From a virus, in the IMG/VR virus record IMGVR_UViG_3300024264_000104, positions 1 to 34,007 of that record: a stretch of DNA of 34,007 bases; one strand, given 5' to 3'. The translations under genes were made by a program, and so were the position numbers. Below the pieces are notes generated by a model. The model saw only the letters and a list, made by a program, of their open reading frames with translations. It ran no database searches and was not told where the DNA came from. The first letter of the stretch is position 1; the number at the start of each line of letters is the position of its first letter. Of this stretch, positions 6,121-34,007 are shown piece by piece.

Positions 6121-6128
6121 TATAAATA
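6121..6128 (+). promoter_or_regulatory. T4-type late promoter box TATAAATA upstream of gp6
   Basis: This perfect TATAAATA lies 14 bases before the gp6 ATG at 6143. If transcription starts about six bases after the box, as in T4 late promoters, the gp6 leader would be under ten bases with no Shine-Dalgarno. A perfect 14-base palindrome (6131-6144) covers the predicted start region. Confidence 0.75.
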
Positions 6129-6130
6129 CC

Positions 6131-6144
6131 ATTGTAATTACAAT
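6131..6144. repeat. Perfect palindrome ATTGTAATTACAAT over the gp6 start
   Basis: The 14-base sequence is self-complementary and runs from just after the late promoter box into the first two bases of the gp6 start codon. The ten-base string TAATTACAAT recurs at 30407-30416, just before another gene start. It could be an operator, or simply AT-rich chance. Confidence 0.5.
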
Positions 6145-9100
6145 GGCTACAACAGATAGACAGAACAGATTATTAGTAGCGGAAGATTGGAGGAAGATCT
6201 ACCGGGCTTTCCAACAGGCCGACTTCAAATCATACGACTTCGAGACCTTGAGAAGGACTATGGTAGCATATCTCAAGGAGAACTACCCAGATGATTTCAA
6301 CGATTTCGTTGAAAGTTCTGAGTACGTGGCACTGATAGATCTCATAGCCTACATAGCACAAGCACTTTCATTCAGGGTTGATCTAAACGCCAGGGAGAAC
6401 TTCCTGGAGACAGCAGAGAGAAGGAACTCAGTTCTAAGGTTGGCAAGGTTGATCAACTACAACGCCAAGAGGAATCAACCGGCAACAGGACTGTTAAAGA
6501 TAGATTCAATATCCACCACACAGGATGTTCAAGACAGTTCGGGAACAAACCTAGCAAATTCAAACATCATCTGGAATGATTCAGCAAACTCAAACTACAG
6601 GGAGCAGTTCACTGCGATACTGAACGCGGCCAACCAATCAGGACAACTGTTCGGCAATCCCAGGGAGTCAGGCACCATAGGTGGAATCAGCACTGAGGTC
6701 TACACCCTGAGTTCAAATCAGTTGGATCTACCCATATTCAAATTCCAGAAAGCAGTTGGAGGCGTGTCCAGATCATTCGAGATAGTGCCCAGCACCATAA
6801 CAGATTCAGACAGCATATACGAATCTTCACCGGTGCCCGGAACGGGACTCACATACACATACAGATCTGATGGATCAGGTGACAGTTCAAATAACACGGG
6901 ATTCTTCTTCCTGTTCAAACAGGGTACACTACAACAGACAGATTTCACAGTGGACACATCAGTGACCAACTACATCAAACCTTTGGACGCATCCAACATC
7001 AACAACACGGACGTGTGGGTGTACAAGTTGGACCAGTTCGGACAGTTGGCAGAGTCATGGACCAAGGTGCCATCACTGTCAGGCAACAACGCGATTTATA
7101 ACTCGTTATCAAAGGCAGAGAGAAACACCTACAATGTGGTAACGAAAAACAACGACACGATAGATCTTGTGTTCGGAGATGGCAACTTCTCGAACATACC
7201 TCTAGGCAACTTCAGGACCTACTACAGGGTAAGTGACAACGCCAAGTATGCGATACAGTCATCAGACATGCAGAACGTACAGTTGACCGTGCCATACACG
7301 GACGCCAACGGTGCACAGCAGAGTTTGACCATGAGTGTGAGCCTCAAGGCCAGTGTCTACAATTCAGCGGCCACGGAATCCAATGATTCAATCAAGGAGA
7401 AAGCGTCTCAGGTCTACTACTCACAGAACAGGATGATCACAGCAGAGGACTACCAAGTTGTACCATTGAGTGCATCACAAGAGATTGTTAAAGTTAGATC
7501 TGTCAACAGGTCCGCTTCCGGAATTAGCAGGGCCAAAGAGATACTAGATCCAACGGGTGCATACTCCAATGTCAGCGTGTTCGCCGAGGATGGAATATTA
7601 TACAGAGAAGAATCAGTACAGCAGTTCACGTTCACGTTCAACAACAAGAGCGACATACAGTCAACAATAGACACATCTGTAGAAGCCAAGTTAAAGGAAG
7701 CATACGCCAGGCAGTTCTACTACTTGAAGTACGGCACGAAAGATGCCAGCACACTTTCCGCAACATGGAATTCTACAACAACATCTACGAACACCAACAC
7801 AGGTTATTTCACTTCCGGCGGAGCGTTGGTCATAGGTGATTCTGCAACTTCCAACATGAAGTTCGCTAAACCAGGTGCATTGGTCAAATTCACTTCTCCA
7901 GACACAAGGAAGTTCCTGAACGGAACATTGGTCACATCATCCACGGACAACGCGGAAGACAGGTTATGGGCCAAGATAGGTGCAGTGGTTCTTGATGGAG
8001 CCAACGGCGGATTGGGAAACCTAGAGTCAGGTGTTGGTCCAGTTACACTTAACAACATAGTGCCAAACGGTTCTGTAATCAATGCAATAATTCCAAATCT
8101 GACCACATCTTTCAGTGCAACGCTAGAAGCAGATATCATATCCAGGATAGAGGCCTACGAAGAATTTGGTTTACGATATGACGCAGATTCAGAAACATGG
8201 AAAGTGATCACTTCTACGAACCTTAGCACCAGTTCGGTATTCAGTCTTGGTAACACAGGTTCGACCACAGGAACAAACGCGGATGCCAGTTGGTGGTTTA
8301 AATTCACCAACGACGGAAACACCTACACCGTACAATACAGGAAACTGGATTACATTTTCGAATCAGAATCACAGAACAAGTTCCACTATGACGTGGAAGA
8401 GAAAATTTACGACTACAAAACAGGAAAGAGTGTCAAGGACACAGTGAAGATATTAAAAACAAACAGTATCGTATCAACGGGAAACAGTGTTGGATACCCA
8501 ATCACGTGGCAAGTGGTCGATGTTGTGACCGAAACAGACGGTTTCCAGGATAACAGGAAAGTCAAGGTTGGTTTCTATGACGATGACGATGACGGTGTTG
8601 TGGACAATCCTGAATTGTTTGACATATACGTTGAACCAACACTTTCAGAATCCACAAAATTCGTGTTCTTCGAGAAGTACACATCATATGATGCCATTGA
8701 AAGATTCAGACCATACGCCGCATCCAACTTCGTTGTTGCGGAAAAAGAAGCAGACATAAATTTAAACACGTCGACCTATACTGATGGGCAACTGTTTTAT
8801 TTCTATGACAGTGCCGAGGATGTGATCAAGAAGTACAGTTCTACAACCAATACCTTGACCACGACAACAGACTACACAGCAAGGAGAGGCAGGAGTTCAA
8901 TAAACTTCCAATACAAACACCATGCCGGCCAAGAGACCAGGATAGATCCCAGCGTGTCGAACATCGTCGACGTTTACTTGTTAGAAAGGACGTATGACAA
9001 CTTGTTCAGGATCTGGTTGCAGGACGGCGGAAGTAAACCGACAACATCCACAGCAGACCAGTTGAGGATCAACTACTCAGGCAAACTTAACCCATTGAAA

Positions 9101-9625
9101 TCTCTATCAGATCAGATCATTTACCATCCTGTCAAATACAAGATACTTTTTGGTTCAAATGCCGAAGAACAACTACAAGCAACTTTCAAGGTTGTCAAGA
9201 ATCCGAAGACCAATGTGTCAGACGCAGTGGTCAAGACCAGAGTCATTGCCGCGATCAATGAATTCTTCGCACTGGACAACTGGGATTTTGGCGACGCTTT
9301 TTATTTTACAGAATTAGCCGCATACATACACAATCAACTAGCACCAGACTTGTTGACAGCGGTTATTGTGCCCAACCAGTCAGGACAGGGTTTTGGGTCC
9401 TTGTTCCAAATTGACTCAGCGGCAGACGAGATTTTCATCAGTGGGGCCACCGTTGATGATGTGTCAATCATAACAGCACTGGGAGCCAACCAACTGGCGG
9501 CATCCGGAACTGTGATCACATCGACATCAACTGCCACGACCAACACCACGACAGGATCAGCAGTGTCAGGCTCTACTACAACAGGTTCCGGTTCAAGCAC
9601 CGGCAGTAGTGGGGCAGGATACTAA
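6143..9625 (+). CDS. gp6: Baseplate wedge protein gp6, enlarged (baseplate_J-like)
   Basis: The protein has 1160 residues, against about 660 in T4. In T4, gp6 dimers form the continuous ring that links the wedges. The N-terminus is diagnostic: YDFETLRRTMVAYLKENYPD, then SSEYVALIDLIAYIAQALSF, then VDLNARENFLETAERRNSVL. The C-terminal J-type end is also typical: SDAVVKTRVIAAINEFFALD followed by WDFGDAFYFTELAAYIHNQL. The extra length lies mainly in a beta-rich region of roughly residues 540-950. This includes an EF-hand-like acidic loop at residues 813-824. The last 40 residues are Ser/Thr/Gly-rich. No Shine-Dalgarno is visible; a late promoter box and palindrome precede the start. The stop overlaps the next ATG by one base. 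Confidence 0.95.
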   Translation: MATTDRQNRLLVAEDWRKIYRAFQQADFKSYDFETLRRTMVAYLKENYPDDFNDFVESSEYVALIDLIAYIAQALSFRVDLNARENFLETAERRNSVLRLARLINYNAKRNQPATGLLKIDSISTTQDVQDSSGTNLANSNIIWNDSANSNYREQFTAILNAANQSGQLFGNPRESGTIGGISTEVYTLSSNQLDLPIFKFQKAVGGVSRSFEIVPSTITDSDSIYESSPVPGTGLTYTYRSDGSGDSSNNTGFFFLFKQGTLQQTDFTVDTSVTNYIKPLDASNINNTDVWVYKLDQFGQLAESWTKVPSLSGNNAIYNSLSKAERNTYNVVTKNNDTIDLVFGDGNFSNIPLGNFRTYYRVSDNAKYAIQSSDMQNVQLTVPYTDANGAQQSLTMSVSLKASVYNSAATESNDSIKEKASQVYYSQNRMITAEDYQVVPLSASQEIVKVRSVNRSASGISRAKEILDPTGAYSNVSVFAEDGILYREESVQQFTFTFNNKSDIQSTIDTSVEAKLKEAYARQFYYLKYGTKDASTLSATWNSTTTSTNTNTGYFTSGGALVIGDSATSNMKFAKPGALVKFTSPDTRKFLNGTLVTSSTDNAEDRLWAKIGAVVLDGANGGLGNLESGVGPVTLNNIVPNGSVINAIIPNLTTSFSATLEADIISRIEAYEEFGLRYDADSETWKVITSTNLSTSSVFSLGNTGSTTGTNADASWWFKFTNDGNTYTVQYRKLDYIFESESQNKFHYDVEEKIYDYKTGKSVKDTVKILKTNSIVSTGNSVGYPITWQVVDVVTETDGFQDNRKVKVGFYDDDDDGVVDNPELFDIYVEPTLSESTKFVFFEKYTSYDAIERFRPYAASNFVVAEKEADINLNTSTYTDGQLFYFYDSAEDVIKKYSSTTNTLTTTTDYTARRGRSSINFQYKHHAGQETRIDPSVSNIVDVYLLERTYDNLFRIWLQDGGSKPTTSTADQLRINYSGKLNPLKSLSDQIIYHPVKYKILFGSNAEEQLQATFKVVKNPKTNVSDAVVKTRVIAAINEFFALDNWDFGDAFYFTELAAYIHNQLAPDLLTAVIVPNQSGQGFGSLFQIDSAADEIFISGATVDDVSIITALGANQLAASGTVITSTSTATTNTTTGSAVSGSTTTGSGSSTGSSGAGY
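8579..8614 (+). other. EF-hand-like calcium-binding loop within gp6
   Basis: Residues 813-824 of gp6 read DDDDDGVVDNPE. This meets the 12-position EF-hand loop rule with Asp at 1, 3, 5 and 9, Gly at 6 and Glu at 12. Such DxDxDG loops bind calcium in EF-hands, dockerins and many secreted beta proteins. The flanking sequence looks like beta strands rather than two helices, so an isolated calcium loop is more likely than a true EF-hand. Confidence 0.55.
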
Positions 9626-27785: not shown

Positions 27786-29414
27786 ATGGCATACAAGATT
27801 AATAACACATTTGGAACCTTACTGGTAACACTGGCTGACGGCACGATTGACACAGCGACCACTGACCTCGCATTGTTTGGAAAAGGTTATGCAGGGTTTG
27901 GAGAGAGTCTGAATGAAAATCTTGTAAAATTATTAGAGAACTTCAACAACACCACAGCACCTTCTAACAAGATACAGGGACAATTATGGTACGACAAGAC
28001 TAACAGCCAATTGAAGGTGTACACGGGTACAAAATTTAAACCGGTTGGATCGGCCAACTCTTCAGCATCGCAACCAACTGACGCAGTGCTGGGAGATGAA
28101 TGGTTTGACACGACAAACAATCAATATTACATCTATAGTGGATCTGCTTGGACCTTGATTGGACCAACCACTGTGGCTGGTTCAGGTGTAACACAGGTCA
28201 TTCCTGAATCCCCAGAGGACAACACAGGTGTAAAAAGAAGTATTCTTAAACTTGTGGTAAATGACTCAGTGGTGGGTGTGATATCCGACCTAGCATTCAC
28301 GCCTAGCTCAACAGACGTAACTTCGGCCGCATTGATATCAGCAGGTTTCGCCACAGTGGCACAGGGTATACAACTTTCAAGCACAGTGTCTAGTGCGAAA
28401 TTTAGAGGTACGGCAACAGACTCGGATAAACTAGGTGGAGTCGCGGCGGCCAATTACTTAAGGTCAGACGTTGCAGATGCAAACACGGGCGGGATGAACG
28501 TACAGACCGATGCTGGTATAAGAATTGGTGCAGGTAATGATATAACAATGACATTGACCGATGATAATTTTACCATAGCACAGACCACACAAGACAAAGA
28601 CATCATATTCACATTAAACGATGGCGGCATCACTAAAGAAGCACTGAGAATGTCAGGATCAACAGGTAGGATAGAGCACTTGAGAGTGGGAGACCTAACA
28701 GTTGACGGAACGAGCACAATAGTAAACACAAATACATTGAGTGTTGAAGACAACATCATAGAATTGAACAGGAACGTATCGTCAAATGTAGGTATGCCTA
28801 ATTACACAGGGTTGAAAGTGAACAGGGGTTCAACTTCCTCGGCCACAGAACAGAACCTATACTGGGTATGGGACGAGACCTTTGCGGATGATGGTTCAAC
28901 GACTTATGGAAATGCAGGCGGTGCCTGGACAGCATTCAAGTCCGCGGCCACAGACACAGAAATGGAAGCACCAACATTGGTAGATATCAGGGCAAACGTA
29001 GTACATGCGACAACTACAAGTGCCATGTATGCCGACTTGGCGGAACGTTATGAAGCAGATTGCGACACAGAAGTTGGTGATGTCGTTATTTTAGGCGGAA
29101 AAGCAGAGATCACCAAATGCGAAGAAGAACTATCTGACGCTGTATTTGGTGTGATATCCGAATCACCAGCGTTTTTAATGAATGCACAAGCAGGCAACAA
29201 CGACTCACACCCCATGGTGGCCTTAAAAGGTCGAGTGATGCTGAAATTACAAGGAACAGCAAAGGCGGGGGATCGGGTGGTATCAGCAGGCAATGGAGAG
29301 GCAAGAGTGGCTAATCTCGATGAATGTACCGCTTTTAACACCTTGGGTAGAGTGATCAAGGATAAATATAATAAAGAAACAGCACTTACGGAGTGCGTGA
29401 TAGGAGTTAAATAG
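27786..29414 (+). CDS. Tail-fibre-like structural protein, paralogue 3, with Peptidase_G2-like C-terminus
   Basis: The protein has 542 residues. The N-terminal module again matches paralogues 1 and 2 (LALFGKGYAGFGESLNENLV, GQLWYDKTNSQLKVYTG), and the middle shares LGGVAAANYLRS and TIAQTTQDKDIIFTLNDGG. Residues about 415-542 form a different C-terminal domain: MYADLAERYEADCDTEVGDV, VFGVISESPAFLMNA and HPMVALKGRVMLKL, with repeated GD-x-V strands. The D-x-AE-x-(Y/F)-E ... GV-x-S-x-x-P pattern resembles Peptidase_G2-type autocleaving or trimerisation domains at the ends of phage fibres. No obvious cut site is visible, so chaperone-like trimerisation is equally possible. No clear Shine-Dalgarno precedes the ATG (AGAGA only). 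Confidence 0.75.
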   Translation: MAYKINNTFGTLLVTLADGTIDTATTDLALFGKGYAGFGESLNENLVKLLENFNNTTAPSNKIQGQLWYDKTNSQLKVYTGTKFKPVGSANSSASQPTDAVLGDEWFDTTNNQYYIYSGSAWTLIGPTTVAGSGVTQVIPESPEDNTGVKRSILKLVVNDSVVGVISDLAFTPSSTDVTSAALISAGFATVAQGIQLSSTVSSAKFRGTATDSDKLGGVAAANYLRSDVADANTGGMNVQTDAGIRIGAGNDITMTLTDDNFTIAQTTQDKDIIFTLNDGGITKEALRMSGSTGRIEHLRVGDLTVDGTSTIVNTNTLSVEDNIIELNRNVSSNVGMPNYTGLKVNRGSTSSATEQNLYWVWDETFADDGSTTYGNAGGAWTAFKSAATDTEMEAPTLVDIRANVVHATTTSAMYADLAERYEADCDTEVGDVVILGGKAEITKCEEELSDAVFGVISESPAFLMNAQAGNNDSHPMVALKGRVMLKLQGTAKAGDRVVSAGNGEARVANLDECTAFNTLGRVIKDKYNKETALTECVIGVK

Positions 29415-29418
29415 TTTT

Positions 29419-30378
29419 ATGGCATATCAAGCAGGTGATACAATTTTAGATGACGAATACAACACATTCGTAAACAGTGGTTCAAGCCCATTTGGTTTAA
29501 ACCATTTCGCAGGAACAGGTGCGTTAAATTACGGTCTTGGAGAATCAGCAGTTGCAACAGTTAATGCGGGTGAGACAATCAACGCATCATCATGGAACAC
29601 ACTTTTCACGGGCATGGCCACTATCGGAGCACACACAGCAGACACACTTACTTCTAGATCGGCTGTATCAGCCGGTGATACGATTGCCATCAAGGCGGCG
29701 GTAGCGGCGGACTTGGTAACATTGGCGGCTTCAGTGGCGGCAGGATCACCAAACACCACAGCATTGACCACATCAGGAATTCTACAACAACCAGCATCAA
29801 GTTCGACATGGACGGGAAGTTTCACCACACAGGTGAGTGCCACTTTCACAAACGCCAACACTATGAGATACTTTTTTAACGCAGGCGGCAAGCTCAGGAT
29901 CGATCCGATCAGGACAGGGAATGGTGGATCAGACGGTGCATCAGGCAAGGACGGTGCTTGGGACAACCTTTACAACGCAGTAGGAAACCTTGACATAGCG
30001 TCACAGGCAACTACAAGATCAGGCTCAGGTGAGACATTAGACACAAACGGTTTATCAATTGGATTTTACGAATTGACTACCTCATACCAAACTCTTTTAC
30101 AACTTTCAGATGACTCATATCCATACACAGCCAACAACATCAAGATCGAAGCCAAATTGGATGCGGCACCAGGATCATCGACTGTAATGACTTTCCAAAT
30201 CACAGCCACTGACGGATCGGGAGAATTCACGTTCAATGATGCTAGTGCAGACAACAACGCATACAGGAACGGAACACACGAGCACAGGTTGTATTCGATC
30301 AACACCACGACTGGTGGCGGATTGGCCAACGCATACTCACCATCAACCACTAACACTGTGAGTAACAGCACAACGTAA
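29419..30378 (+). CDS. Fibre-like virion structural protein
   Basis: The 319 residues begin MAYQAGDTILDDEYNTFVNS, then PFGLNHFAGTGALNYGLGES. They continue as an Ala/Thr/Ser-rich, beta-prone protein with no Cys until a low-complexity Thr/Asn tail. A C-terminal segment reads STVMTFQITATDGSGEFTF and HEHRLYSINTTTGGGLANA. It is the last of the structural run and lies four bases after paralogue 3. It is probably a tail fibre or virion decoration protein by composition and neighbours; no specific family is certain. AGGAG lies 12 bases before the ATG and a TTAAATA box five bases before it. Confidence 0.65.
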   Translation: MAYQAGDTILDDEYNTFVNSGSSPFGLNHFAGTGALNYGLGESAVATVNAGETINASSWNTLFTGMATIGAHTADTLTSRSAVSAGDTIAIKAAVAADLVTLAASVAAGSPNTTALTTSGILQQPASSSTWTGSFTTQVSATFTNANTMRYFFNAGGKLRIDPIRTGNGGSDGASGKDGAWDNLYNAVGNLDIASQATTRSGSGETLDTNGLSIGFYELTTSYQTLLQLSDDSYPYTANNIKIEAKLDAAPGSSTVMTFQITATDGSGEFTFNDASADNNAYRNGTHEHRLYSINTTTGGGLANAYSPSTTNTVSNSTT

Positions 30379-30415
30379 TAAATTTTATTCGGTTGCTATC
30401 ACTCCATAATTACAA

Positions 30416-30421
30416 TATAAT
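30416..30421 (+). promoter_or_regulatory. TATAAT box in the fibre/enzyme gap (weak)
   Basis: The 49-base gap between the last fibre gene and the enzyme cassette is very AT-rich. TATAAT ends six bases before the ATG at 30428, and TAATTACAAT, also found at the gp6 start, lies just upstream at 30407-30416. No Shine-Dalgarno is visible. It may be a separate promoter for the downstream cassette. Confidence 0.35.
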
Positions 30422-30427
30422 TGTGTT

Positions 30428-30742
30428 ATGGACGTTAATCAATTAAAAGACATTTCTGACAGATCTTATCGTATCGCTGTCAACAAGAAGAATGCTTTAG
30501 AAAAAGCAAGATCTTCCATGATCTTGGCCTATTCTGGACATCTGTTCCAGGCCAACGCAGAGACAATAAATCTCGTTCAGGTGCTGAAAAACAAACTTAA
30601 AAAATTCGTAATATTAGACAGCAATCACAATCCCATGATGGTCGAAGATCCTGATGATTTGTTAGAAAGATTGATCACAAAACAACAGGAAGCCTTGAAC
30701 ATCTATCACCAATCATACGCTGAGTTAACATCTAAAGGATAA
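30428..30742 (+). CDS. Small helical protein of unknown function (104 residues)
   Basis: The sequence MDVNQLKDISDRSYRIAVNK, then ALEKARSSMILAYSGHLFQA, then LLERLITKQQEALNIYHQSY is largely alpha-helical. In the middle is a short FVILDSNHNPMMVEDPDD beta hairpin. It resembles small conserved hypothetical proteins I recall from marine T4-like phages, for which no function is known to me. It opens the unit that continues into the glycosyltransferases, whose first member starts five bases after its stop, with AAAGGA at 30734-30739 lying inside its last codons. Confidence 0.7.
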   Translation: MDVNQLKDISDRSYRIAVNKKNALEKARSSMILAYSGHLFQANAETINLVQVLKNKLKKFVILDSNHNPMMVEDPDDLLERLITKQQEALNIYHQSYAELTSKG

Positions 30743-30747
30743 CCAAA

Positions 30748-31494
30748 ATGACAGGTGTTCTGCTCTACTGTTTCAACACTGAGTTTTATCGCTATGACAA
30801 GATAGCGGCCAAGACCATACCACTGCTGAGGCAAAATCTAGGACTTGAGATCACGGTCGTGACCAACGACGAAACCCGTGTGCATCTACCAGAGCAGGAA
30901 GGTGTGAACTACATGGTGATTACAAACCAAACAGGAAACTATATAAATCAAAAATCTTGGCATAATCTAGACAGGCATAGAGCCTATGAACTTTCACCGT
31001 ATGAGAAAACCATTCTGTTAGACATTGACTATTTTTGTTATTCAGATTATCTACTCACACTGTCCAACACGGATCAAGACTTTATGGTCCATGACAAAGT
31101 TCATGACGTGACAGGACACGACAGTTACAAGTTCGCAAGAAATAGCATGATACCTATGGTATGGGCAACAGTGATCATTTTTAAAAAAACACCAAGGACC
31201 AAAGCCATATTTGACATGGTCAAATATGTTAAAGAACGTTACAGTTATTTCTGTGATCTCTACAGGATAGATTTCAAAAATTTTAGGAACGATTATGCGT
31301 TTGCAATAGCATTACATCAAATAGGAGGATTCAAAGGCTATGAAACCATACCTAACAGATTGCCCACCCTTCCGGCCGCGGCCAAAGTCACTGAGGTATC
31401 AGCAACTCATGTATCATGGAATCATCATGGCCGTCATGGTAAGATAGCAAACAACGACGTACACATAATTGATAAGGGAGTACAGGATGTCTAA
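30748..31494 (+). CDS. GT-A-type glycosyltransferase-like protein (DxD present)
   Basis: The protein has 248 residues. An N-terminal Rossmann-like start (MTGVLLYCFNTEFYRYDKIA, then LGLEITVVTNDETRVHLP) leads to YEKTILLDIDYFCYSD, in which D92-I-D94 is a DxD motif. This motif places a metal and nucleotide-sugar in GT-A enzymes such as family GT8. The downstream region (MVWATVIIFKKTPRTKAIFD and DYAFAIALHQIGG) fits a GT8-like acceptor half. The start has AAAGGA eight bases upstream. The C-terminal end overlaps the next gene by eight bases, and the next gene encodes a paralogue. Its substrate is unknown; candidates are fibre proteins, host surface glycans or modified DNA bases. Confidence 0.7.
   Translation: MTGVLLYCFNTEFYRYDKIAAKTIPLLRQNLGLEITVVTNDETRVHLPEQEGVNYMVITNQTGNYINQKSWHNLDRHRAYELSPYEKTILLDIDYFCYSDYLLTLSNTDQDFMVHDKVHDVTGHDSYKFARNSMIPMVWATVIIFKKTPRTKAIFDMVKYVKERYSYFCDLYRIDFKNFRNDYAFAIALHQIGGFKGYETIPNRLPTLPAAAKVTEVSATHVSWNHHGRHGKIANNDVHIIDKGVQDV
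31474..31480 (+). promoter_or_regulatory. Shine-Dalgarno AAGGGAG deciding the start at 31487
   Basis: AAGGGAG lies six bases before the ATG at 31487, inside the end of the upstream glycosyltransferase gene. It argues against the in-frame TTG at 31469, which precedes this site. Confidence 0.8.
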
Positions 31495-32293
31495 GGGTTT
31501 CTTATGGTTCTGCCAAAATAACGACAAAACAGATTATGTTGAACTTTCAGTGGCCTTAGCAAAGTCTTTAAAAAAATTCAATAAGGATAACAATGTGTGC
31601 GTGATCACAGATGCAAAAACAAAAATAGATTCTCCGTACATAGATCAAATAAAGGTACTTGCATCGGATGAAAGTGAGCACGATGACATTAAATGGGGAA
31701 ATGAATACAAGGCCTTTACCATGTCTCCATTCACTCATACAATCAAACTGGCCGCAGACATGCTATGGACGGCAAACACAGACTGGTGGTGGTACCATTT
31801 ATGGCAACACGACATGGTGTTCTCGGTGAACTGTTACAATTACAAAGACCAGTTGGTCAAAGACATGACATATAGGCCTCACCACGATAGAAACAGACTG
31901 CCAAACATATACAGTGATCTAACCTACTTCAGACGGAGTATGGAAACTGTTAGATTTGGTAGAATATGCGAAGCATTGACAAAAAACTGGAAAAGTGTTT
32001 GCGAAACAATTCTTATTAATTGTCATGACAAGTTCCCCAGCACCGACATGGTGTATGCCCTTGCGTACAGGCTAATGGATCCAACAAACAAAGAGTTAAT
32101 AGATTTCCCATGGTTCAAGATGATTCATAACAAGAAAGCAATTAACGGGTTAACTCATGTAGCAGACCAGAACACCTATCTGTTGCCAACACGTGCAGAC
32201 GACAAGATATTCCTGGGAGGATATGCCATAAGCAGGCCATGGCACTACGTGGATAAAACTACGATTAAGGAGATGGATGCCAGGATTTTTTGA
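31487..32293 (+). CDS. Glycosyltransferase-like paralogue with altered DxD (AAD)
   Basis: The protein has 268 residues from the ATG with an ideal Shine-Dalgarno. It parallels the preceding gene in layout: GFLWFCQNNDKTDYVELSVA, then VCVITDAKTKIDSPYIDQIK, then AFTMSPFTHTIKLAADMLWT. The position matching the DxD (residues 92-94 upstream) is A89-A90-D91, so the first metal-binding Asp is lost. The second half is rich in Trp, Tyr and His (DWWWYHLWQHDMVF and FPWFKMIHNK). It may be a non-catalytic partner of the neighbour, or an enzyme using only one Asp or a different metal site. It overlaps the previous gene by 8 bases and the next by 17. Confidence 0.65.
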   Translation: MSKGFLWFCQNNDKTDYVELSVALAKSLKKFNKDNNVCVITDAKTKIDSPYIDQIKVLASDESEHDDIKWGNEYKAFTMSPFTHTIKLAADMLWTANTDWWWYHLWQHDMVFSVNCYNYKDQLVKDMTYRPHHDRNRLPNIYSDLTYFRRSMETVRFGRICEALTKNWKSVCETILINCHDKFPSTDMVYALAYRLMDPTNKELIDFPWFKMIHNKKAINGLTHVADQNTYLLPTRADDKIFLGGYAISRPWHYVDKTTIKEMDARIF

Positions 32294-32570
32294 AGCACTT
32301 AAAAACATTCCCGAACCCAAGAAAGTTGTTCCTAAGGTAACGATAGATGGCCGAGAGTTTGAAGTTTCTACGGAGTTATTCAAAGAAATACAGAAGCATG
32401 GAGAACAAGAATACACTGTGAGGAACGACAAGATAGTGATGAAACCACGGTCACAGGCAAGGAGTAAGTATCCCGTTTTAGCAAAAGGTGAAAAGGGTCA
32501 CGATTTGCTAGATGGCAACATATTCTGGCCGACAGATAAAGTCGAAGGAGGTTACGAGTGGACAAGGTAA
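32277..32570 (+). CDS. Small unrecognised protein (97 residues) in the glycosyltransferase cassette
   Basis: The start is supported by AAGGAG at 32267-32272, four bases upstream. The gene overlaps both neighbours (17 bases upstream, 13 downstream). The protein (MPGFFEALKNIPEPKKVVPK, VTIDGREFEVSTELFKEIQK, then GHDLLDGNIFWPTDKVEGGY) is basic, with a small beta hairpin and a helix. It has no membrane segment and no cysteine. The nested overlaps imply coordinated, stoichiometric synthesis with the flanking enzymes. No function can be assigned. Confidence 0.7.
   Translation: MPGFFEALKNIPEPKKVVPKVTIDGREFEVSTELFKEIQKHGEQEYTVRNDKIVMKPRSQARSKYPVLAKGEKGHDLLDGNIFWPTDKVEGGYEWTR
32545..32551 (+). promoter_or_regulatory. 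Shine-Dalgarno AAGGAGG deciding a GTG start
   Basis: This is a perfect anti-16S complement six bases before the GTG at 32558. It supports GTG as the true start of the next glycosyltransferase and lies inside the preceding small gene. Confidence 0.85.
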
Positions 32571-33454
32571 AAATCTGTGATTTAGATTTCGTGTACATCA
32601 GTTTCAAAGAACCTAACAAAGAAGAGAATTGGGCGGACCTCAAGAACAAAGTGCCATGGGCAAAACGTGTGGACGGGGTGGTTGGATTCGATTCAGCACA
32701 CAAGGCCGCGGCGGAAAAAGCAGAGACTGATTTTTTCATATCCATAGACGGCGATAACATCATACATGAACGATTCTTGCTTGAAACATTGGATTTCTCT
32801 CTAACAGATCCAACTGCCGTACATAGATGGAGGGCGACCAACAGTGTGAACGGACTGATCTACGGAAACGGCGGTATCGTAGGATGGCCCAAAGACACCT
32901 GTCTAAATATGAAGACACATGAAAACTCAGACAACCAGGAAAACCAAGTTGATTTCTGTTGGGGTGTCCCGCATGAAAACCTATTCAACTGTTACTCTAG
33001 CACAGTTATACATACTACTCCACAGCAGGCCTTTGTTGCAGGGTACAGGGAAGGTGTAAAAATGAGTTTGGATCGGGGCAAGGCAATCACAGCAGAAAAT
33101 TTTAAGAAGAAAATGTGGCCCACCAATCTAAGGACCTTATCAATCTGGATGTCTGTGGGTGCCGATATTCCAAACGGACAATACGCCATGTTGGGAGCAA
33201 GGACAGGTTGTTATGACACAGTGATTGGGGCAATGGACATCAACAGAGTCAAGGACCTAGATTACATGGAAAGTGTGTACAATGCACACACCTACGATGT
33301 CGCCATGGATAAGCAGTTACAGATGTATGGCGAAAGCATAAGACAGAGACTAGACATACCAGTGGCCGAGTACGATGAAAATGAGAGCAAGTTTTTCAAG
33401 TATGCCATGGCAACACACAAGAATAAAGGGGTACAGACACGTGAGCGACAGTGA
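32558..33454 (+). CDS. Glycosyltransferase-like protein (family-2-type GT-A, DGD motif)
   Basis: The protein has 298 residues and starts at GTG. The GT-A-like first half runs DLDFVYISFKEPNKEENWAD, then VPWAKRVDGVVGFDSAHKAA, then ETDFFISIDGDNIIHERFLL, with D64-G-D66 as the metal-binding DxD. Further signatures are YGNGGIVGWPK and LNMKTHENSD, then VDFCWGVPHENLFNCYSS. Proteins of this pattern occur in marine T4-like phages near fibre and radical SAM genes, as I recall, without a known substrate. It is distinct in sequence from the two upstream paralogues, so the cassette holds two glycosyltransferase types. It overlaps the downstream radical SAM gene by 14 bases. Confidence 0.75.
   Translation: MDKVKICDLDFVYISFKEPNKEENWADLKNKVPWAKRVDGVVGFDSAHKAAAEKAETDFFISIDGDNIIHERFLLETLDFSLTDPTAVHRWRATNSVNGLIYGNGGIVGWPKDTCLNMKTHENSDNQENQVDFCWGVPHENLFNCYSSTVIHTTPQQAFVAGYREGVKMSLDRGKAITAENFKKKMWPTNLRTLSIWMSVGADIPNGQYAMLGARTGCYDTVIGAMDINRVKDLDYMESVYNAHTYDVAMDKQLQMYGESIRQRLDIPVAEYDENESKFFKYAMATHKNKGVQTRERQ
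33425..33431 (+). promoter_or_regulatory. Shine-Dalgarno AAAGGGG for the radical SAM gene
   Basis: It lies nine bases before the GTG at 33441, within the end of the upstream gene. It supports the GTG start over the first in-frame ATG at 33510. Confidence 0.6.
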
Positions 33455-34007
33455 TTACAAGACAGACGCACTAAAGGCCAAGGACAAGTTGGCAGAAGTT
33501 TCACCTACGATGTGTCTGGCCAAGTGGAACCAGACATCACTGCATCTCCCTACAGGTATGACCAACTCGTGTTACCACCCGCCACTGCATGAGATAGATG
33601 CAACAAAACTAAAAGACAACCCCGCGGCACTGCACAACACAGCGGAGAAACTGAATCAACGACAACAGATGCTCGAAGGCAAACAGCCCTCGGGTTGTTC
33701 ATACTGTTGGAACATGGAGAAGACCGGGGAGATGTCAGACAGGCACTACAGATCCGGTGAACCTTGGGCCATGCAGGACTTCGATGACATCAGGAAGAAT
33801 CCCATAGATGAAAATCACACCCCCAGGTACGTGGAGGTCAACTTCAGCAACGCCTGTAATTTAAAGTGCAGTTATTGTTCACCACAGTTCTCGACCACGT
33901 GGGGCAAGGAGGTAGACAGGTATGGTGAGTATCCCACGTCGCCACCGCACAACGCACCCGAGCACTTCCAGGGAAGGCGTAAGCCCATACCCAATAGGGA
34001 GGAGAAC
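33441..34007 (+). CDS. Radical SAM enzyme, N-terminal part (runs off right edge)
   Basis: The frame is open for 189 codons from GTG to the window edge. It carries the radical SAM motif at C139, C143 and C146 (NFSNACNLKCSYCSPQFSTT), which binds the [4Fe-4S] cluster that cleaves S-adenosylmethionine. An upstream C86-x2-C89 (PSGCSYCWNMEKTG followed by SDRHYRSGEPW) and earlier Cys residues at C25 and C44 could serve an auxiliary cluster. This layout fits the twitch-domain radical SAM proteins seen in marine T4-like phages. It is translationally coupled to the glycosyltransferase before it, so it may act on the same substrate. The reaction cannot be deduced, and the C-terminal auxiliary domain is outside the window. 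Confidence 0.85.
   Translation, partial: MSDSDYKTDALKAKDKLAEVSPTMCLAKWNQTSLHLPTGMTNSCYHPPLHEIDATKLKDNPAALHNTAEKLNQRQQMLEGKQPSGCSYCWNMEKTGEMSDRHYRSGEPWAMQDFDDIRKNPIDENHTPRYVEVNFSNACNLKCSYCSPQFSTTWGKEVDRYGEYPTSPPHNAPEHFQGRRKPIPNREEN

Follow-up and report, generated by a model that had tools for sequence, protein, structure and literature searches.

Radical S-adenosylmethionine (SAM) enzymes and glycosyltransferases are both known from marine T4-like phages. The 183-kb marine T4-like environmental genome TARA_ERS488813_N000010 carries 12 radical SAM genes, which were interpreted as part of Fe-S protein metabolism without a link to glycosyltransferases or fibres (PMC5332604), and pelagimyophages have both GT8 genes and cassettes of radical SAM genes next to the tail fibres in their host recognition clusters (PMC7029224). 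In the sequenced Vibrio phage K566 (255 kb), GT8 (PF01501) and radical SAM genes are interspersed with weakly GT4-like ones in a single stretch. In mycobacteriophages, virion glycosylation places glycans at the C-termini of structural proteins (Freeman 2023, cited in PMC12619734). Here we describe an operon in the viral record IMGVR_UViG_3300024264_000104, all 34,007 bases of which constitute the window: a tail-fibre gene is followed by a gene for a protein of 104 amino acids (aa), three putative glycosyltransferase genes (GTa, GTb and GTc) with a small gene (sm97) among them, and a radical SAM gene (rSAM1) cut by the contig end.

This locus overlaps only in part with the described systems. 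Its longest related records have 10-12 matches to N-terminal-twitch radical SAM enzymes (up to 12 per whole record, weak ones counted), much like TARA_ERS488813_N000010, beside which we set it by description. As in pelagimyophages, GT8-type and radical SAM genes stand next to fibres in marine T4-like phages, but no such gene order or co-inheritance is described in the passages of PMC7029224 consulted, and the baseplate wedge protein of the window (6143-9625) has its closest isolates in the large phages Atu_ph07, SCTP-2 and K64-1 (34-37%; 35-37% for Atu_ph07 and SCTP-2). A pelagimyophage identity was therefore not upheld. K566 shares the clustering of GT8 and radical SAM genes, but its radical SAM proteins are ~24% identical, its gene order differs and no GTc homologue was found. 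We found the gene order, promoter and fibre-tip co-inheritance reported below nowhere described in the literature searched, which covers few subscription journals, and found no jumbo-phage literature pairing radical SAM enzymes, fibres and glycosyltransferases. The original prediction, made from the window alone, had proposed an undescribed modification system; since the gene types are published for marine host-recognition clusters and the K566 cluster is sequenced, what is left of that novelty is the architecture and its link to the fibre, namely a conserved sigma70-like promoter and a shared history of fibre tip, 104-aa gene, GTa and GTb.

The same gene order occurs in ~55 related viral contigs from uncultured marine T4-like phages, where the operon reaches ~20 kb in total, so the cassette that was first noticed is only its front part. 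Downstream of rSAM1, relatives encode SGNHa (in some), rSAM2-rSAM5, SGNHb, GNATq and a carbamoyltransferase; the labels SGNHa, SGNHb and GNATq reflect sequence appearance only and had no support from Pfam, SGNHa being a DUF6071-like gene that scores 25.1 bits against a cut-off of 27. The 11 records with enough sequence beyond the carbamoyltransferase continue with a 434-aa gene (11/11), an epimerase-like SDR (10/11) and DegT-like aminotransferases (9/11), and in some cases a Gfo/Idh/MocA gene, sometimes on the opposite strand, and then with convergent genes. Variation is found in the presence of SGNHa and in the order and strand of the DegT, SDR and Gfo genes at the far end. In distant phages whose GTa is 24-32% identical (L067, L068, L070 and L071) the order fibre, small gene, GTa, GTb, GTc persists; L067 and L068, in which the contig runs on, have radical SAM genes as well. 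rSAM1 is still in front in L041, L046, L049 and L050, with rSAM5 preceding rSAM4 in L041 and L050, and was not seen in L042-L045. The cassette proteins show no transmembrane segment by hydropathy and the cassette has no membrane gene, which fits a cytoplasmic acceptor. We consider it very probable that this is a soluble operon for the assembly and tailoring of a glycan. The suggestion that the genes serve one pathway thus gains from the search across marine phages: their order is fixed rather than scattered and recurs in distant phages, two of the glycosyltransferases are modelled with GT-A folds, and nucleotide-sugar genes lie in the same operon.

Correlation of distances across 33 non-redundant loci separates two histories within this order; the differences hold in 500 of 500 subsamples, and a smaller locus set was also run with permutation tests. 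The adjoining fibre, here called fibre 29419 after its start, the 104-aa gene, GTa and GTb intercorrelate at r 0.77-0.88, and sm97 at 0.55-0.62. The preceding fibre (fibre 27786), GTc and rSAM1 form the other group (r 0.47-0.68), with 0.2-0.4 between the groups and 0.27-0.33 for fibre 29419, the 104-aa gene, GTa and GTb against fibre 27786. Physical distance does not explain the split, since the two fibre genes are no more than 5 bases apart. The break falls inside fibre 29419 at about residue 110: its first ~110 residues follow fibre 27786 at least as much as they follow the glycosyltransferases, while its C-terminal two thirds, the fibre tip, follow GTa and GTb. The first columns of GTc again follow fibre 27786, and the exchanged block is thus bordered within fibre 29419 and at sm97/GTc. 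This pattern suggests that sugar and fibre work as a pair. Fibre 29419 ends in a Ser/Thr/Asn-rich tail (30343-30378). Of 47 distinct homologues, which otherwise share only ~50% identity, 33 have SN within the last ten residues. Fibre 27786-29414 shows a weak match to Peptidase_G2, an autoproteolytic chaperone, at residues 407-468.

The operon is preceded by a conserved promoter. Of 30 distinct sequences upstream of the 104-aa gene, 28 carry a TTG box separated from TATAAT by a spacer of exactly 17 bases, and in 26 the ATG follows the TATAAT after 6 bases; this spacing implies that transcripts start at or beside the ATG and would be leaderless. Inverted repeats of at least two types enclose or adjoin the TATAAT, at 30393-30430 of the window and in the homologous upstream regions; examples are CCATAATTAT-TGT-ATAATTGTGG and TAACTGTAT-A-ATACAGTTA. 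It looks as though two kinds of operator had been exchanged along with the block. The T4 late motif TATAAATA is found at 514 and 6121, two matches against 0.54 expected and so only suggestive; the copy at 6121-6128 precedes a baseplate gene. Because the sigma70-like promoter is conserved and the late motif lies elsewhere, the glycan operon seems to have a host-type promoter of its own. In a 196-kb relative (L072-L074), several minus-strand genes have TTG-N16-18-TATAnT boxes a few bases before the ATG, which suggests that leaderless sigma70-type promoters are more widespread in these phages.

The five tightly packed genes from GTa to rSAM1 are real and located as predicted (Table 1). GTa begins 5 bases after the 104-aa gene, and the following overlaps measure 8 (GTa/GTb), 17 (GTb/sm97), 13 (sm97/GTc) and 14 bases (GTc/rSAM1). 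In relatives the corresponding overlaps are 8 bases (in almost every marine locus), mostly 17, 13-22 and 8-14, and this recurrence argues against chance. GTc and rSAM1 start at GTG codons (32558 and 33441); the open reading frame list gives starts at TTG 31469 and ATG 33375, neither of which is the conserved one. Each gene from GTa to rSAM1 is preceded by a Shine-Dalgarno-like stretch, as had been proposed; the 104-aa gene is not. Compared with the closest relative, the cassette genes of the window have nonsynonymous divergence (dN) of 0.15-0.31, while their synonymous sites are saturated or nearly so; all of them are therefore coding and constrained. The 104-aa protein was considered as a DUF4376-like fibre assembly protein and rejected, there being no such Pfam match in 26 members.

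Table 1 Features of the fibre-proximal part of the operon in the window.
Feature	Position	Strand	Remarks
Tail fibre-type structural protein, 319 aa (fibre 29419)	29419..30378	+	N-terminal ~110 aa track flanking fibre; remainder co-varies with GTa/GTb; ends ...TVSNSTT
Conserved sigma70-like promoter, TTGCTA-17-TATAAT	30393..30421	+	-10 box 6 bases 5' of the 104-aa ATG
104-aa protein, operon gene 1	30428..30742	+	Varies together with fibre tip and GT8 pair
GTa, GT8-type GT-A glycosyltransferase (predicted model)	30748..31494	+	Invariant D92-x-D94
GTb, GTa paralogue	31487..32293	+	Family motif E-x-D; window copy A-A-D
sm97, 97 aa	32277..32570	+	Fast evolving; core VTIxG...VSLE...GE and C-terminal W conserved
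GTc, 298 aa	32558..33454	+	GT-A half 1-152; invariant D64-G-D-N67; C-terminal half helical
rSAM1, cut by contig end	33441..34007	+	Putative N-terminal-twitch radical SAM; CxxxCxxC 139-146; auxiliary Cys 25/44/86/89

GTa is predicted to be a GT8-type GT-A enzyme. Its model (pLDDT 92) has its best structural matches in LgtC, glycogenin and LARGE1 (Z ~15, best 15.7; root-mean-square deviation (rmsd) 3.0-3.9 over ~200 aligned residues), LgtC being the top Foldseek match, and the DxD of the original prediction, D92 and D94, is invariant in 37 sequences. It shares the fold throughout and the DxD with the GT8 family, but at ~10% identity and with no Pfam match up to E 0.1, PF01501 included, which is why we call it GT8-type and do not file it as a member. 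GTb is a paralogue of GTa by sequence (hhalign probability 98.8), and a profile search gives it a weak similarity to glycogenin (E 0.26). It had been described as a paralogue with an altered DxD; the paralogy holds, but the family motif is in fact ExD, with a nearly invariant Glu and no DxD, and only the window copy and its closest relative have AAD instead. For GTc, the second-type enzyme with a DGD motif, the DGDN is invariant in the family and the model (pLDDT 91.6) predicts a GT-A enzyme, with the GT-A half in residues 1-152 (Z 8-10.4, rmsd 3-4). Its Foldseek TM-scores are low, it reaches 13.2 bits against the PF00535 cut-off of 23.3, and the model resembles the S-glycosyltransferases ThuS and SunS among many others. 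Neither GTa nor GTc has sequence relatives with a solved structure. A Rhodospirillales contig from a metagenome-assembled genome (L069:2310-5896) carries three tandem GTc relatives, one with Sel1 repeats, and may hold a cellular relative of GTc.

The cut fifth gene, a radical SAM gene in the original prediction too, resembles enzymes of the N-terminal-twitch type. The window fragment scores 152 bits over 151 of the 398 positions of N_Twi_rSAM (NCBIfam NF033640; cut-off 170), its complete homologue in L002 scores 325 bits, and all five radical SAM genes of relatives exceed the cut-off. The CxxxCxxC motif and four auxiliary Cys are 100% conserved in all five (51 sequences for rSAM1). The name of the NCBIfam model carries no function, and here five such enzymes stand in a row per phage operon. 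Distances of rSAM3, with rSAM4 (L002:13584-16266 and relatives), are uncorrelated with any neighbour, unlike those of rSAM1, rSAM2 and rSAM5, although rSAM3 sequences look sound, hinting that rSAM3 and rSAM4 were exchanged separately.

The remainder of the window reads as T4-like structural sequence, with a minus-strand late sigma factor gene, genes for baseplate hub and wedge, one of 4281 aa and others for fibre-like proteins. No isolated phage matched 22480-34007 at the DNA level, and tblastn gave no match for GTa, GTb, GTc or rSAM1. Four contigs from metagenome-assembled genomes (L063-L066) carry the same phage genes, but their bins belong to unrelated phyla and no host was inferred from them.

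In the scheme we propose, host RNA polymerase would start at the sigma70-like promoter upstream of the 104-aa gene. An unusual nucleotide sugar, amino or deoxy, would be provided by the SDR, DegT and Gfo/Idh/MocA enzymes. The soluble GT8-type pair GTa/GTb would start or extend a chain on an acceptor and GTc would add a further sugar, and the sugar would be altered by the carbamoyltransferase and the five radical SAM enzymes of the N-terminal-twitch type. The acceptor would most likely be fibre 29419, perhaps its Ser/Thr/Asn-rich tail, and progeny virions would bear a glycosylated fibre, whereas in mycobacteriophages the glycans shown by experiment are on capsid and tail tube (Freeman 2023, cited in PMC12619734). 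That a tailored glycan matched to the fibre is placed on the virion in this way is the explanation we prefer, if tentatively, because of the co-inheritance with the fibre tip, the lack of membrane genes and the conserved fibre tail. Several observations weigh against it. Linkage within an exchanged block between conserved flanks needs no functional tie, and co-inheritance of fibre tip and glycosyltransferases is also expected if the enzymes alter the receptor that the fibre reads. The VSN(S/T) tail could serve assembly, and a sigma70-like promoter distinct from the late motif would suit early, host-directed expression.

The operon may instead remodel the host surface, a possibility we regard as serious if somewhat less probable, with lipopolysaccharide core or another envelope glycan altered in infection, which would keep both superinfecting phages and the phage's own progeny from binding. 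Lipopolysaccharide core is a common substrate of GT8 enzymes, and LgtC is the top Foldseek match of GTa; the exchange of fibre tip and GT8-type pair would then reflect that both match one receptor. The host-type promoter, set apart from the late structural operon, points the same way, as does the view that the pelagimyophage authors took of GT8 genes in the host recognition cluster (PMC7029224). However, the cassette has no flippase, lipid-carrier transferase or Gtr-type membrane protein, and more than 10 enzymes are much for a receptor switch. It is improbable that the target is a peptide, with the radical SAM enzymes acting like SPASM/twitch maturases on sm97 or a fibre and the glycosyltransferases adding sugars to that peptide: rSAM3 is weakly similar to sulfatase and sactipeptide maturases, sm97 sits mid-cassette with its conserved C-terminal Trp and GTc recalls ThuS/SunS, but sm97 has no leader/core pattern, in a distant phage the corresponding position holds a larger protein with a stretch that by eye resembles it, and the operon holds nucleotide-sugar and carbamoyl genes with no peptidase or exporter gene seen.

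Nor do we expect that a hypervariable island has gathered unrelated auxiliary genes. The variable SGNHa, the shifting order and strand of the far-end genes and the uncorrelated rSAM3/rSAM4 would suit such an island, but in the ~55 contigs the order of the core genes and the lengths of their overlaps are fixed, and distant lineages echo them, which makes such an island very improbable. Least probable of all is glycosylation of modified phage bases against host nucleases. Phage glycosyltransferases do glycosylate DNA in T4 and others, but no base-modifying partner gene was seen in the cassette, the locus lies in the fibre region and GTa and GTb co-vary with the fibre; base-glucosylation sets are not known to include nucleotide-sugar, carbamoyl or radical SAM genes. 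Of the three targets in the original prediction, fibre and host glycan are thus retained and nothing supports DNA.

Returning to a glycan on the virion fibre, a further and more doubtful proposal is that the fibre tip and its dedicated glycosyltransferase pair are an exchangeable module within a constant radical SAM and tailoring operon, giving each tip a bespoke glycan made by radical chemistry for host recognition. If true, marine phages would tune host recognition by exchanging a fibre tip along with the enzymes for its decoration or protection, and a radical SAM family named only by its domains would gain a concrete role in sugar tailoring. It would also explain, in a way open to testing, why marine T4-like phages have so many radical SAM genes, which have so far been listed as auxiliary metabolism.

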